Shown here piece by piece: positions 570 through 62,703 of a DNA stretch of 64,000 nucleotides. The position numbers were made by a program, and so were the translations under genes. The stretch is taken from the NCBI GenBank assembly GCA_017503075.1, contig JAFVTU010000012.1:62001-126000 (forward strand). The letters run 5' to 3'. Position 1 is the first letter of the stretch. Every line of letters begins with the position of its first letter. Below the pieces are notes generated by a model that was not told where the DNA came from, did not search any database, and saw only the letters and a list, made by a program, of their open reading frames with translations. This stretch comes from Paludibacteraceae bacterium (lineage in GTDB: Bacteria; Bacteroidota; Bacteroidia; Bacteroidales; Paludibacteraceae).

Positions 570-2912
570 TTATAATTCAATTACAGTTATTCCAGCACCG
601 CCACGGTCGGGATCACCGTCGTGGAAAGAGATGTCACCTGATTTCAATCGCCGCATGCTCTTTTGGCGATCCGCCAGATAATCGCGTACCACCTGCTTCA
701 AAGCGCCTGTACCCGTGCCGTGAAGAATAGACACTTGCTCGGCATTAACCATCAAAGCATCGTCCACATAGGCTATCAGTACCTCTAATGCCTCATCCAC
801 ACGCAACCCACGGATGTCTAATTCGCGTTTGAAAGAGAGTTTTTTCGCGCGCAACTCGTCTGCCACATTGCTTGATACCATTTTAGGCTTAGTGGAATTA
901 GTTTCCTGAATTAATTTTGCAGGGTTGCTGGTTAACAATTTGAGGTCACGAAGATCGCGAAGCACTTTGTTTTGCTTAGAGTTAGCAGTAGAATTAGAGT
1001 TACTAGAAGTAGCAGATTTACTAGTTTTGCTTTCTACTTTGGTCTTTAGTGTTTCTACTTTTTGTCGAGCGGCTTGTGTGGCTTTTTTCTCGGCCTTTGC
1101 CTCTTTAATCTCTCGTATTGTGCGTTCGATAGTAGCATTGCTCTTGCGCAATATGTCTGCCGCTTCAGCATTTGCCTCTTCTAGAATGGCGCGTTTTTTG
1201 GCTTTGATACTAGCTAGTTGCTCCTCATAGTGAGCAATTTTCTCCTCTAGATGTTTCTCGCGTTGACGAATATTCTGTCGTTTATTCTCCCAATAGCGTT
1301 TGTCTCGTGCAATATCTTGCAACTGTTTGTCATAATCAATATGCTCCTCACCTACGATATCTGTTGCTCGTTGGATAATCGTTTCTGGCAAACCAATTTG
1401 GCGTGCAATCTCTATAGCAAAACTACTACCAGCTTGGCCTATAGAGAGTTGGAATAGTGGTTTGAGTTGTCCGCGGTCATATAGCATAGCGCCGTTGATG
1501 ATGCCTTCTGTACGCTCGGCAAGGTGCTTGAGGTTGCCATAGTGAGTAGTAATCACACCAAATGCATGTTGTTCGTTCAGATGTGTAAGTACCGCCTCTG
1601 CGATGGCACCACCAATGAGTGGCTCCGTACCCGTACCAAACTCATCAATAAGCAAGAGTGTATGTCTATTCGCATTTCTCACGAAGAACTTCATATTGCG
1701 AAGGTGGGATGAATATGTTGAGAGATCGTCTTCGATAGATTGCTCATCACCAATATCAAGCATTAATCGTGAGAATATACCCATTTGACTAGATTCGTGC
1801 ATAGGTACAGCCAACCCACATTGAAGCATGTATTGTAATAATGCTACAGTCTTAAGACATACTGACTTACCACCAGCATTCGGTCCGCTGATGACAAGGA
1901 TGCGTTGTTTTTTATCAAGTGTGAGTGTTAGAGGCACAACTGTTTTTCCTAAACGACGGAAGTTAAGCAACAAGACAGGATGATACGCCTCACGCCATTG
2001 GATATGCGTATGGTTGTTTACCTCTGGAACAATGGCATGAATATCTAGTGCAAATAATGCTTTGGCACATAGAAAATCCACCTCAGCCAGGTAATCTTCG
2101 GTAGCTATAATTGCAGGTATCTCAGGGCGAATCTCTGCAGTTATAGCCATGAGAATGCGTATGCGTTCGCGGCGCTCTTCGCCTTCAAGTTCTCGAATGC
2201 GGTTGTTAGCTTCTACCACTTGTTGTGGTTCGATAAAAACCGTCTTACCAGTAGCAGACTCATCATGGACTATACCGCCAATTTTGCGTTTGTAGGCAGG
2301 TGGTACAGGCAAGACCAACCGCCCCTCTCTCATAGTAGGTGCAGCGTCTTTTTCTAGTATACCCTCCGCTTGTGCTTGACGAAGGATGGCATTCAATGCT
2401 CGGCTGACTGAACCTTGTGATGCTGCAATCTCTTTGCGAATACGAGCCAGTTCGGGTGATGCATTGTCACGCATCTTGCCATAACGGTCAAGCACTCTAT
2501 CAATCAAAGTGATGAGGTTAGAAGGTGAAGATGTAATGAGACTAGAAGATAAGATTGGATATTTTGTCTTATCTAATGTAGCAAAGAATCGCTCAAGCTG
2601 AGCAGAATAAGAGAGCATTTTACTCAGCGAGAAGAGGTCATTTTCATCCATAAAAAGTCCCTCAATCCGAATGCGTGATAGTGCCTCACGCAAATCATAT
2701 ATCTCACCTTTTGGAAAGTTAAGAGTAGGATCAGTAAGGATTGCCATCATCTCCCGCAGTCGATGCAGAAGTGATTGAATCTCAGGATAATGGGTTAGCC
2801 ACTGCATTTGCTCCACTCGCTCACGCCCTAGTGAAGAAGTGCAACAGCCCTTAAGGCTGTCGCGTATGACTTGGAAGTCAATCTTCTGTTCTATATTCTG
2901 AGGATAGGTCAT
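570..2912 (-). CDS. mutS2: Endonuclease MutS2
   Basis: MutS2 proteins are MutS-family ATPases that suppress homologous recombination and, in some Firmicutes, rescue collided ribosomes. They lack the mismatch-recognition domain of MutS. The protein has 780 residues, the usual length. The clamp and lever region comes first, then Walker A (GPNAGGKS, 343-350), the signature region around DIGDEQSIEDD, and Walker B (LLLIDEFGTGTEP). A charged coiled coil follows, then a Thr/Ser/Lys-rich linker, and a C-terminal Smr nuclease domain carrying DIRGLRVDEA and HGTGTGALK. The linker around residues 640-670 is low-complexity (SKTSKSATSSNSNSTANSK). It starts at ATG 2912, 21 bp after the upstream lipoprotein stop, so the two are probably cotranscribed. 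Confidence 0.95.
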   Translation of the reverse strand: MTYPQNIEQKIDFQVIRDSLKGCCTSSLGRERVEQMQWLTHYPEIQSLLHRLREMMAILTDPTLNFPKGEIYDLREALSRIRIEGLFMDENDLFSLSKMLSYSAQLERFFATLDKTKYPILSSSLITSSPSNLITLIDRVLDRYGKMRDNASPELARIRKEIAASQGSVSRALNAILRQAQAEGILEKDAAPTMREGRLVLPVPPAYKRKIGGIVHDESATGKTVFIEPQQVVEANNRIRELEGEERRERIRILMAITAEIRPEIPAIIATEDYLAEVDFLCAKALFALDIHAIVPEVNNHTHIQWREAYHPVLLLNFRRLGKTVVPLTLTLDKKQRILVISGPNAGGKSVCLKTVALLQYMLQCGLAVPMHESSQMGIFSRLMLDIGDEQSIEDDLSTYSSHLRNMKFFVRNANRHTLLLIDEFGTGTEPLIGGAIAEAVLTHLNEQHAFGVITTHYGNLKHLAERTEGIINGAMLYDRGQLKPLFQLSIGQAGSSFAIEIARQIGLPETIIQRATDIVGEEHIDYDKQLQDIARDKRYWENKRQNIRQREKHLEEKIAHYEEQLASIKAKKRAILEEANAEAADILRKSNATIERTIREIKEAKAEKKATQAARQKVETLKTKVESKTSKSATSSNSNSTANSKQNKVLRDLRDLKLLTSNPAKLIQETNSTKPKMVSSNVADELRAKKLSFKRELDIRGLRVDEALEVLIAYVDDALMVNAEQVSILHGTGTGALKQVVRDYLADRQKSMRRLKSGDISFHDGDPDRGGAGITVIEL

Positions 2913-5866: not shown

Positions 5867-6853
5867 ATGATAAAAAGATTCGCACTATTTGCTTCATTAT
5901 TAGTTATGAGCATGTGGCTACAAGGGCAGACAAAAAATCCTACTTTTGTACAATACATTGAGAAATACAAGCCCCTTGCCATTGATCAGCAACGCAAACA
6001 TAAGGTGCCAGCAGCCATTACAATAGCGCAAGGATTGCTAGAGTCAGCCGCAGGAACATCGGAGTTAGCTCAAAATTCAAATAATCACTTTGGTATCAAA
6101 TGCACTTCTGATTGGAAAGGTAAAACTGTAACAGCAGACGATGATAAAGCAGGCGAATGTTTCCGTAGATATGCTGAAGTAAGTGACTCTTACGAAGATC
6201 ACTCTCTCTTCCTTTTGCGTCCTCGCTACGAAGCATTATTTGCCTTACCAATAGGCGATTACAAGTCGTGGGCACATGGATTGAGAGCATGCGGATATGC
6301 AACAGATCCCAATTATCCAGAGAAGTTGATAAAACTGATTGAGTTATACAATTTGCAGGAATTGACTTTTGACAAATCATTAGTTGGAGCAGGTTTTGTA
6401 AAAAAATCAGATACCACATGGGTAAATACAGAGTCAGATGTGATTGTTCATGCTGCGATGGGAGGGGTGAATGACTACGTGTATCCACCAATGGAGGATT
6501 TAGAGTTGTATAACAATCACCCCTCAGGTTATCGCAATGGGGTGCGTTATGTGATTGCGGCAGAAGGCGAGACATATGCCTCTTTGGCTCTGTACCTGAG
6601 AATGCGCGAGAAGACACTGCGCAGGTATAACGATGCGTTAGACACACGCGAGTTAGAGCCAGGTGATATGGTGTATATTTATCCCAAGAAAAACAGAGCT
6701 GGCAGAAAATACAGTTATTATTACTTCCGTCCAGGTGATGACGCTTGGGAGATTGCTCAGAAATATGGAATCAAGTTGAAGAGTTTGTATAAATTGAACG
6801 GCATACCATATGGTATCCCTCTAAAAACTCAACAACGCCTTCAATTACGCTGA
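5867..6853 (+). CDS. GH73 N-acetylglucosaminidase with LysM domains
   Basis: A peptidoglycan hydrolase predicted to cleave between GlcNAc and MurNAc in the periplasm. The signal peptide covers about residues 1-21. The glucosaminidase (FlgJ/GH73-like) domain covers about 25-160, with the catalytic-glutamate segment AQGLLESAAGTSELA (E59) and the family features NNHFGIKC and YEDHSLFL. Two LysM-like modules follow, about 225-285 (YVIAAEGETYASLALYL) and 290-328 (YYYFRPGDDAWEIAQKYG), expected to bind glycan strands. At 328 residues it is a normal size for Bacteroidota members. It opens the long plus-strand gene run and is followed 2 bp later by the DUF721 gene. Confidence 0.9.
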   Translation: MIKRFALFASLLVMSMWLQGQTKNPTFVQYIEKYKPLAIDQQRKHKVPAAITIAQGLLESAAGTSELAQNSNNHFGIKCTSDWKGKTVTADDDKAGECFRRYAEVSDSYEDHSLFLLRPRYEALFALPIGDYKSWAHGLRACGYATDPNYPEKLIKLIELYNLQELTFDKSLVGAGFVKKSDTTWVNTESDVIVHAAMGGVNDYVYPPMEDLELYNNHPSGYRNGVRYVIAAEGETYASLALYLRMREKTLRRYNDALDTRELEPGDMVYIYPKKNRAGRKYSYYYFRPGDDAWEIAQKYGIKLKSLYKLNGIPYGIPLKTQQRLQLR

Positions 6854-29848: not shown

Positions 29849-29857
29849 AAAGGGTTG

Positions 29858-29937
29858 TATAGGATGGTATAGGATGGTGTAGGATGGTATAGGATGGTGT
29901 AGGATGGTATAGGATGGTATAGGATGGTATAGGATGG
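29858..29937. repeat. 10-bp tandem repeat TRTAGGATGG x8
   Basis: Eight uninterrupted 10-bp units differ only at an A/G in position 2. The unit is close to TGTAGTRTGG inside iorA (51515-51564) and to the complement of CTACACCATR inside the phospholipase-D gene (60982-61031). Confidence 0.93.
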
Positions 29938-30008
29938 TGTTGATAGTGGTTATTATCAGCGGGTTGCAGAATAGGCAGTAAGAAAATATAAAATATTTTT
30001 GACAAATA

Positions 30009-32286: not shown

Positions 32287-32351
32287 GGACGCCCTGCGGG
32301 CTATAGGATATAGGACGCTCTCAAACGAGCTATAGGACGGCACATAGTGCC
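32287..32351 (-). repeat. Three tandem hairpin-GTCC modules
   Basis: Read on the minus strand, each module is a stem, a loop, the complementary stem, then GTCC. The stems are GGCAC-TAT-GTGCC, GCTC-GTTTGA-GAGC and GCCC-GCA-GGGC, separated by CTATA/TATAG words. The stems differ in sequence but keep pairing. The array fills the recQ-rimO gap. Confidence 0.8.
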
Positions 32352-32372: not shown

Positions 32373-33719
32373 ATGAAGAAAGGAGAGATAGATATAATCA
32401 CATTGGGTTGCTCGAAAAACCTGGTGGATGCTGAGCGATTGATGCGTCAGTTGGAATTGGTGGGATACAAATGTGTGCATGACTCTGCTAATCCTAGGGG
32501 AGAGATAGCTATCATTAATACTTGTGGTTTTATAGGCGATGCGAAAGAAGAGAGTATTGATGTAATATTACAATTCGCAGCAAAGAAGACAAAAGGCGAG
32601 TTACATAAGTTGTATGTAATGGGGTGTTTATCGCAGCGTTATAGAGAGGAATTGCCAGTCGAAATACCAGAGGTGGATCAATGGTTTGGGAAATTTGATT
32701 ACATGGGGATAGTGGAAGAGGTAAAAGGTGAAAGGTTAAAGGTGAAAGGTAAGGGATATGAGCGGACGCTGACAACCCCAAAGCATTATGCGTATCTGAA
32801 GATTGCTGAGGGGTGTAATCGATATTGTTCGTATTGCGCAATACCACTAATTACGGGGCGATTTACATCGCGTAGTATGGAAGAAATATTGGATGAAGTG
32901 AGGTGGCTGGTGAGTGAAGGAGTGAAGGAGTTTAATGTGATTGCTCAAGACTTATCTAGTTATGGAATAGACCTTTATGGCGAACATCGATTGGCTCAGT
33001 TGGTGGATAAAATGGCAGATATTGCTGGCGTAGAGTGGATACGACTGCACTATACCTACCCTACCGACTTTCCGTATGATTTGTTGCCAGTGATGGCCAA
33101 GCACAAGAATGTGTGCAAATATATGGATATCGCATTGCAACATTGTTCGGACAATATGCTCAAGAGGATGCACAGGCATATCACTCGCGAGGAACAAGAT
33201 GCGGTGATAGCAAGGATTCGCCAAGAAGTGCCAGGGATATGTATTCGAACAACTTTGCTAGTGGGTCATCCCGGAGAAACGGAGGAGGATTTTAACGAAC
33301 TATGTGAATGGGTAAAAGCGATGAAGTTTGAGCGTATGGGTGCTTTTGCTTACAGCGAAGAAGAGGGGACTTATGCCGCTAAACACTACACAGATGATAT
33401 TCCACAAGAAGAGAAAGAAAGGCGAGTGGATAAATTGATGGCTATACAACAGGATATTTCGGCTGAATTATTGCGTACGATGGTTGGCAAGAAATTGCGA
33501 GTCCTAATAGACAGAGAGGAGGATAAATATTATATCGGCCGTACCGAATACGATTCACCAGAGGTGGATTGCGAGGTGCTGATTGAGAAAACGGAAAGCG
33601 GACAGGTGAAAATGGGAAACGAGGGGCAGAATTCAGGAGTCCAAATTTTAGAAATAGGAGAATTTTATACAGTAACTATACAAAAAACAGAGGATTTTGA
33701 CCTCTATGCAAGCTTATGA
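32373..33719 (+). CDS. rimO: Ribosomal protein S12 methylthiotransferase RimO
   Basis: A radical-SAM methylthiotransferase that modifies a conserved Asp of ribosomal protein S12. The MTTase domain has three cluster cysteines C13 (LGCSKN), C51 (NTCGF) and C84 (MGCLSQ). The radical-SAM motif is CNRYCSYC (C148, C152, C155). A TRAM-like C-terminal domain ends the 448-residue protein. Residues 116-128 (VKGERLKVKGKG) are a low-complexity in-frame insertion encoded by GGTGAAAGGTTAAAG words (32718-32756) just before the radical-SAM core. Its stop overlaps the HU gene start (ATGA). Confidence 0.95.
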   Translation: MKKGEIDIITLGCSKNLVDAERLMRQLELVGYKCVHDSANPRGEIAIINTCGFIGDAKEESIDVILQFAAKKTKGELHKLYVMGCLSQRYREELPVEIPEVDQWFGKFDYMGIVEEVKGERLKVKGKGYERTLTTPKHYAYLKIAEGCNRYCSYCAIPLITGRFTSRSMEEILDEVRWLVSEGVKEFNVIAQDLSSYGIDLYGEHRLAQLVDKMADIAGVEWIRLHYTYPTDFPYDLLPVMAKHKNVCKYMDIALQHCSDNMLKRMHRHITREEQDAVIARIRQEVPGICIRTTLLVGHPGETEEDFNELCEWVKAMKFERMGAFAYSEEEGTYAAKHYTDDIPQEEKERRVDKLMAIQQDISAELLRTMVGKKLRVLIDREEDKYYIGRTEYDSPEVDCEVLIEKTESGQVKMGNEGQNSGVQILEIGEFYTVTIQKTEDFDLYASL

Positions 33720-47262: not shown

Positions 47263-47303
47263 ATAGGCGAAGCCGTCCAATACCCAATAGCCCGTAGGGC
47301 GTC
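47263..47303 (+). repeat. Two hairpin-GTCC modules
   Basis: CCAATA then GGC-GAA-GCC-GTCC (47266-47278), and CCCAATA then GCCC-GTA-GGGC-GTC (47290-47303). They lie between two convergent genes, immediately ahead of the bidirectional terminator. Confidence 0.78.
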
Positions 47304-47314
47304 ATTATCCAATA

Positions 47315-57207: not shown

Positions 57208-57226
57208 GCTCGCCATGCGAGCGTCC
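57208..57226 (+). repeat. Hairpin-GTCC module
   Basis: GCTCGC-CAT-GCGAGC followed by GTCC and ACTAAAC, preceded by AGCAATA. It lies between the dnaK stop and its terminator. Confidence 0.75.
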
Positions 57227-62686: not shown

Positions 62687-62703
62687 GGCGCCTCGCGCCG
62701 TCC
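62687..62703 (+). repeat. Hairpin-GTCC module
   Basis: GGCGC-CTC-GCGCC then GTCC, flanked by ACTAAAC words on both sides. It fills the gap between the antiporter and mntP genes. Confidence 0.75.

Follow-up and report, generated by a model that had tools for sequence, protein, structure and literature searches.

A dispersed family of GGAC-footed mini-hairpins in one clade of Paludibacteraceae, with foot and stem conserved inside open reading frames

Palindromic repeats lying in the open frames of unrelated proteins are known from the Rickettsia palindromic elements. Of the repeats whose hairpins carry a tetranucleotide foot at the 5' side, the GTAG-REPs are described in passages of PMC3733652 and PMC6006769 as dispersed, clustered, and occurring also within ORFs; while the CGTC-tagged REPs (dRS3, RPE-4, RPE-6), which are on record from Bacteroidetes too, are presented in the relevant part of PMC3733652—where RPE types are mentioned as well—as having intragenic copies and no association with a transposase gene, along with stems of 8-9 bp that mostly start with A-T, loops of 4-5, a CCA-like tail, an arrangement mostly in head-head dimers, and rare clusters. 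The section of PMC6006769 on the Y1 transposases attributes atypical structures to the Bacteroidetes subclass 2.6, and the portion of PMC2800124 on the sponge mtDNA hairpin elements, the fungal double-hairpin elements, and the GC clusters portrays these short dispersed hairpins of organelles as mostly intergenic, with some mitochondrial repeats reported in genes.

The closest known kind of the family described here, of which three modules stand in the recQ-rimO gap of the window (the whole 64,000-nucleotide stretch analysed, from the source genome, G000), is the REP-like palindromic repeats. As with the GTAG-REPs and BIMEs accompanied by a RAYT (TnpA-REP), so far as those passages describe them, its hairpins have a foot and are dispersed, clustered, and present in ORFs; but its foot is GGAC rather than GTAG/GTRG, its stems, of 2-6 bp, come in at least 35 different arm sequences, its modules form head-to-tail arrays with a fixed 8-bp spacer, and a Y1 (HUH) transposase was matched once in the source genome and not in four others that carry modules (G308, G356, G394, G333). 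With the CGTC-REPs, on the same partial account, the family shares intragenic copies and the want of a dedicated transposase, and the complement of GGACG is CGTCC, whereas the stems of 2-6 bp starting with G-C, the loops of mostly 3-4, and the head-to-tail arrays set it apart. The likeness to the Rickettsia elements is one of layout: the GGAC modules, too, lie in frame within unrelated protein genes (53 of 57 arrays open), but are much shorter, variable hairpins in arrays, whose conservation we assessed in the nucleic acid and not in the peptide. The sponge and fungal elements resemble them, by the descriptions available in that portion, in being short dispersed hairpins, but are mitochondrial. 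The sequence-only reading of the window had recognised no described repeat family in the modules; and, for their part, Rfam families at the gathering threshold, scanned over the window and four loci with arrays, matched nothing except 5S and LSU rRNA in L021, and a text search of the open-licence PMC subset, which search was not exhaustive, found no description of a GGAC-hairpin family, although the layout itself is of the REP, CGTC-repeat, or RPE kind that those texts have in print.

On the plus strand of the gap, GGAC stands at 32287, 32313, and 32335, and the three hairpin-GTCC units that had been claimed from the opposite strand are present, the stems GCCC, GCTC, and GGCAC each having its exact complement. 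Module 1 (32287-32301), preceded by TTTAGA, consists of the foot at 32287-32290 and the hairpin GCCC-tgc-GGGC at 32291-32301, with a perfect 4-bp stem; the spacer TATAGGATATA (32302-32312, of the 11-bp spacing class) leads to module 2 (32313-32330; foot 32313-32316, hairpin GCTC-tcaaac-GAGC 32317-32330); and the spacer TATA (32331-32334, of the 4-bp class) to module 3 (32335-32351; foot 32335-32338, hairpin GGCAC-ata-GTGCC 32339-32351), after which comes TATGGG. The further claim that the same layout recurs in the window proved right at three places, all on the minus strand: 47266-47282 (spacer and foot TATTGGAC at 47275-47282, hairpin GGC-ttc-GCC at 47266-47274), 57208-57226 (GGAC 57223-57226, hairpin GCTCGC-atg-GCGAGC 57208-57222, in TTTAGTGG context and 3' of an Hsp70 gene), and 62687-62703 (GGAC 62700-62703, hairpin GGCGC-gag-GCGCC 62687-62699, again in TTTAGTGG context). 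At a fourth, 47290-47304 on the minus strand, the foot is TGAC (47301-47304, hairpin GCCC-tac-GGGC 47290-47300), so that the hairpin reads there with GTCA, not GTCC. By reading, the listed hairpins precede TATNGG or TACAGTTTAG and not a T run, and they occur in both orientations and also inside ORFs, on which grounds intrinsic terminators were rejected. Other repeats lie nearby: tandem decamers (TATAGGATGG/TGTAGGATGG) at 29855-29940 of the window, upstream of recQ, have letters related to the module spacers; an in-frame repeat (GTGAAAGGTTAAAGGTGAAAGG) at 32715-32760 inside the source rimO encodes KGERLKVKGKG; and in several genus genomes (e.g., G429, G396, G435, G312) the match to RimO breaks in two near residue 200 while long frames stay open, which looks like the insertion of other repeats at that point.

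The recQ-rimO modules belong to a genome-wide family of dispersed mini-hairpins. The unit is TATNGGAC, followed by a hairpin of 7-15 nt whose first base is G and last base C, and then TATNGG, often in head-to-tail arrays of rigid spacing. Enrichment of foot plus hairpin, which had been proposed as a check, was confirmed in the source genome: over 464 kb (the window plus 20 stretches from source-genome contigs that had matches), GGAC was the top-ranked tetranucleotide 5' of GC-rich 4-bp hairpins (55/1683 occurrences, 5.9 times background), with 47 cases against 6.4 expected when loops were confined to 3-6 nt (Poisson 6e-25); and the pattern TATDGGACGN{5,13}CTATDGG gave 90 matches in that genome as against 0 for its reversed control. 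The word TATAGGAC alone, with up to one mismatch allowed, showed no enrichment in the window (44 versus 43.3 expected).

We collected 572 distinct modules flanked by a spacer at each end, in which the stem was perfect in 478 (2-bp stems included), had one mismatch in 66, and more in 28; six of the 572 come from L125, a Saprospiraceae locus that does not belong, and five of those six have three mismatches. Thirty-five different stem arms are found paired across 131 locus groups. Stems range from 2 to 6 bp, the first pair being G-C in 48 of 49 distinct 13-mers, and loops are mostly of 3-4 under the stem definition used here. Consecutive modules are spaced by 4 bp (TATN before GGAC) in 236 cases, by 11 bp (TATNGGATATN before GGAC) in 34, and otherwise in 3. 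When inserts with more than two mismatches were left out, covariation exceeded that in shuffles at most variable stem positions—pair 4 of the 13-mers was paired in 47 of 49 distinct inserts, the shuffle maximum being 28—though the innermost pair of the 13-mers and 15-mers equalled the shuffle maximum without rising above it, and the first pair scarcely varies. Adjacent modules had a stem arm in common in only 9 of 271 pairs (shuffle mean 27.6, minimum 14), which avoidance was not significant within the source genome alone (1/18 versus 2.6) or G308 alone (0/16 versus 1.3). Module densities in the stretches taken were 71 per Mb in the source genome, 96 in G308, and 43 in G394, values that may be too high because the source stretches came from contigs with matches and because known matches guided the placing of some of those from G356, G355, G308, and other genomes. 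Orientation to replication, judged by GC skew per stretch, showed no significant bias (clusters on the G-rich strand versus the other: source 10/12, G356 13/7, G308 14/8, G355 2/0).

A spacer-agnostic search of both strands, for neighbouring hairpins that share one spacer and differ from each other, returned 19 such pairs in the source genome, 35 in G356, 44 in G308, 5 in G394, and, in two sets of G437 (the second listed as RGIG4248), 6 and 18, as against 0 in shuffles of these sets; over 20-60 kb each it returned none in six other genus genomes and one in G371, and at 19 RimO loci of other genus genomes it returned two (both in G411), the shuffles also giving two. Besides TATNGGAC, that search brought up the spacers TGTAGATC and TACAGGAC, and in G411 TGTATGACC. 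The first of these, a second flavour with an AGATC foot (TGTAGATC), was seen in the source genome on L027, at 2694-2733 (minus strand) and 6552-6567 (plus strand), with the hairpins GCttcGC, GGCtgcGCC, GCtgcGC, and GGCtacGCC. The recQ-rimO gap of G411, a genome outside the GGAC clade, holds a hairpin array with the 9-bp spacer TGTATGACC (L174, about 1390-1500). Different dispersed hairpins were noticed in G361 (TCCT-TCCGctttCGGA-aggagtgg, enriched in that genome; L199-L201) and in RGIG9579 (CTCCTT-GCCCnnacGGGC-AGAAATCTAAAT; L043, L050, L108).

The unit pattern is common only in one clade of Paludibacteraceae/Bacteroidales MAGs among the matches listed. With a stricter pattern, 295 genomes drawn evenly from the order gave 12 matches in the source genome and 1 in a single other genome, the reversed control giving 11 matches in 10 genomes of the same sample. 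The unit pattern given above, which is wider, matched in 19 of 101 genus genomes, with at least four matches in 11: G308 (124), G000, the source (90), G356 (60), G355 (47), G394 (38), G333 (22), G366 (21), G319 and G360 (12 each), G352 (5), and G348 (4). The remaining eight had one or two matches each, and the controls up to two. The ten rich genomes other than the source are among its nearest by RimO identity (82-88%), the next of the 151 searched being at 74% or below; G437 and G430, also near by RimO, were outside the pattern sample. An exception to the link with the clade is G329, which lies outside it and has one perfect module. A scan of named genomes yielded at least 105 loci, and the matches listed were mostly from Paludibacteraceae/Bacteroidales MAGs, whose titles often named the ruminant hindgut. 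Of 80 loci of that scan, 13 were excluded from later counts because their titles placed them in other phyla or in distant Bacteroidota; the 25 loci beyond those 80 (L115-L139) were counted, all titled Paludibacteraceae or Bacteroidales except the Saprospiraceae L125; places duplicated across genome sets were removed by identity filters plus context.

Modules also lie in open frame within genes, which genes by Pfam encode a MurG-type glycosyltransferase, a PDDEXK protein, a phosphopantetheinyl transferase, an FAD-dependent protein, CobW, a tRNA pseudouridine synthase (TruA type), a VapE-like protein, and EPSP synthase (AroA). The alignment of AroA (12 sequences, from 14 loci) has three insertion places, where this conserved enzyme accepts in-frame repeat inserts that differ between species. 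Of 254 arrays, 157 had no module-free ortholog among the sequences compared, 40 corresponded there to a site outside an ORF, and 57 to a site within one; in 53 of these 57 the array is itself in an open ORF. L072 is one of the four exceptions; in the other three, all arrays of the recQ-rimO gap, the ORF used for comparison runs on the opposite strand of that gap and is, in our view, spurious. Since the reading frames stay open, neither removal of the modules from the message nor ribosome bypass is needed.

Inside ORFs the GGAC foot and the stem are conserved at the level of the nucleic acid while the loops drift. The codon-position test comprised 115 ortholog comparisons, with branches and loci in common, from 69 of 169 perfect coding modules; the pairs—here as in the orientation, control, and single-locus-group stem tests—were ungapped through the module and of 70-97% identity, which limit was extended to 99.5% for the count of loop differences. 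At codon positions 1, 2, and 3, the gene flanks diverged by 9.2, 4.4, and 37.6% (position 3: 8980/23904), the stems by only 0.3, 1.6, and 3.8% (position 3: 11/292), and the foot by 0, 0, and 1.1% (position 3: 2/178), although the expected divergence at query sites is lowered because the query modules were picked as perfect hairpins; the loops diverged by 25.2, 17.6, and 18.4% (position 1: 29/115; position 3: 25/136). As loop position 1 diverges at 29/115 against 0.092 in the flanks, there is no conservation of the peptide as such. Hairpins lacking the foot served as controls; taken from the same genomes (900 sampled of 4367, giving 764 comparisons), they behaved like ordinary coding sequence, with 829/2099 = 0.395 at stem position 3 and 6.0, 3.2, and 38.7% in the loops. 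The low divergence of stem and foot beside the high divergence of the loops, unlike in the control hairpins, therefore indicates that the constraint falls on the nucleic acid and leaves the peptide free.

The same contrast appears in other partitions of the data. When only pairs with a changed loop were taken, stem position 3 had changed in 3/140; and in stems found in a single locus group, in 1/84 (8 pairs). With one comparison per ortholog group (30), changes affected 6/378 stem bases, 26/139 loop bases, and 16/577 spacer bases; and in the spacers of all arrays, compared where the arrays were nearly equal in length and at least 70% identical (as in the other array-level tests, of array versus flank identity and of stem changes), the N had changed in 19/175 whereas each letter of the final GAC had changed in 0/175. 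Between genes the difference of stem and loop is weak or absent in the few comparisons available: 29 co-directional intergenic comparisons gave 11/248 in stems versus 5/90 in loops, with no clear difference, and 31 noncoding comparisons in another alignment gave 5/342 versus 8/145 (p = 0.026). Two candidate processes were rejected. Block-wise loop replacement fails in that 0, 1, 2, and 3 loop differences were found in 58, 19, 7, and 3 of 87 pairs, only a mild excess over the binomial 51.4, 29.6, 5.7, and 0.4; and gene conversion from same-stem copies in that rare stems are equally conserved, in the few pairs concerned.

We interpret the modules—TATNGGAC, a hairpin beginning with G and ending with C, and TATNGG—as clade-specific mini-hairpin sites that would act as single-stranded or extruded DNA and be read by a putative shape-recognising factor, with arrays growing by recombination or slippage, to which reading we assign a probability of about 0.45. 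The putative clade-specific factor would recognise the GGAC foot beside a short hairpin, reading shape and not the letters of the stem, whichever way the site lies relative to transcription; recombination or slippage within the TATNGGA heptamer spacers would bring new modules into the arrays; any copy that broke the frame would be lost; and neighbours with the same stem would be avoided because such copies mispair or get deleted. The layout would thus work like that of a REP site, with its foot tetranucleotide and hairpin, but without the REP transposase. Tentatively, and at less than even odds, such structure-read sites might extend genome-wide, with the candidate factor accepting GGAC beside almost any short stem on either strand, and with selection keeping foot and stem even in essential genes, the peptide being free so long as the frame stays open.

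The orientation of the modules bears on whether the nucleic acid so constrained is DNA or RNA. Among coding modules, 173 are antisense and 86 sense to the gene; in the antisense pairs (83) the foot had changed in 0/332 bases, the stem in 19/754, and the loop in 57/261, and in the sense pairs (26) in 2/104, 7/222, and 17/85, respectively. A constraint that holds also in antisense modules points to DNA rather than mRNA, and the retention of foot and stem whether the module is sense or antisense to the transcript favours, we infer, recognition as folded single-stranded or extruded DNA. The hairpins might instead act in mRNA, an RNA-binding protein or RNase reading the GGAC-hairpins there and the stems being kept for transcript stability or processing; but the foot is equally conserved in the predominant antisense copies, where the mRNA carries hairpin-GUCC. 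This alternative, which we regard as unlikely, does agree with the co-directional intergenic modules, more often sense (149) than antisense (85), and with the tolerated mismatches, which relative to the transcript are G.U in 23 cases versus A.C in 11 (p = 0.058); but with the innermost pair excluded that excess falls to 15 versus 8 (p = 0.21), counted on the GGAC strand, mismatches of the G.T and A.C types are nearly balanced (15 and 17), an excess of G.U might also come from deamination of the non-template strand, and Rfam, as stated, gave no match.

The turnover of arrays between orthologs bears on whether the stems are young. On either side of recQ-rimO, G356 and G355 are 97.5-98.6% identical, but their arrays differ; while G356 and the source genome, whose recQ and rimO are just 77-80% identical, have arrays with 1 difference in 98 bases, which difference is a loop base of module 2. 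In other species the gap is occupied by different hairpin arrays or by plain repeats, or is nearly empty, and at other loci single modules are gained and lost within arrays. By flank identity, gain, loss, or replacement was scored in 169/224 comparisons at 70-80%, 145/217 at 80-90%, 26/69 at 90-97%, and 9/12 at 97-99.5% (522 of 540 comparisons shown, and not independent of one another); and where arrays could be aligned, their identity exceeded that of the flanks in 94 of 101 comparisons. Hence we retained the explanation that the modules are exchanged between species as short tracts, the stems showing their true age and the unpaired bases (loops and N) mutating faster with no purifying selection, because tracts do appear to move between species and because intergenic stems and loops diverge nearly alike; but we consider it quite improbable, given that pairs with changed loops keep stems and feet almost unchanged, that the N outside the hairpin drifts as well, and that most of the pairs with a changed loop (19 of 29) differ there by a single substitution.

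Among 173 comparisons of orthologous modules, the stems had few changes, mostly in one arm: 25 single versus 4 double Watson-Crick cells, or 4 versus 1 when each ortholog group contributed a single comparison (n = 30). One orthologous double change is GCCCtgtcGGGC -> GTCCtgtcGGAC. Stem diversity seems to arise mainly from the gain, loss, and replacement of whole modules. The sequence-only reading had offered selection on structure or a copying process working on hairpins: selection is supported, most strongly inside ORFs, but a copying that rebuilds hairpins in place is not; and with respect to the uncompensated drift of stem arms that it had named as contrary evidence, the changes are indeed mostly uncompensated, yet the stems barely drift. 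A purely mutational upkeep of complementarity, for example by template switching in which one arm serves to correct its partner, would account for the many perfect stems of differing sequence and for that double change, but should give many double changes where few are seen and leaves the fixed GGAC foot unexplained, for which reasons we judge it very unlikely.

Least probable of all is a strict REP family mobilised by a REP-associated Y1 (HUH) transposase encoded in the same genome, in spite of the layout of foot tetranucleotide and hairpin, the single Y1_Tnp match in the source genome, and the atypical flanking structures ascribed to subclass 2.6 in that section of PMC6006769, since Y1_Tnp was matched in 5 of 20 genomes searched (G000, G319, G400, G303, G245) without tracking the modules, and not at E 0.001 in G308 (98% complete, 124 pattern matches), G356 (84% complete), G394, or G333, which absence from several module-rich genomes disfavours this enzyme as the mover. 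A reverse transcriptase, matched in 7 of the 20 genomes searched, was not seen in G000 or G308, and was set aside as a general companion of the modules. By eye, the source Y1_Tnp gene (L014 754-1863, minus strand) stands beside an apparent type I restriction specificity subunit and seems itself to hold repeated palindromes of a different family, encoding VLGxNSPS.

REP-like repeats are usually read as selfish or as neutral after insertion. The orthologous in-gene copies of the GGAC family can be compared with one another, with the third codon positions as a built-in clock, and the constraint that they reveal is on the nucleic acid and not on the protein, so that the question whether palindromic repeats serve their host becomes directly testable. 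The in-gene conservation of foot and stem as nucleic acid hints, moreover, at a putative factor that reads the shape of hairpins, which factor is thereby predicted in a little-studied clade of gut bacteria.
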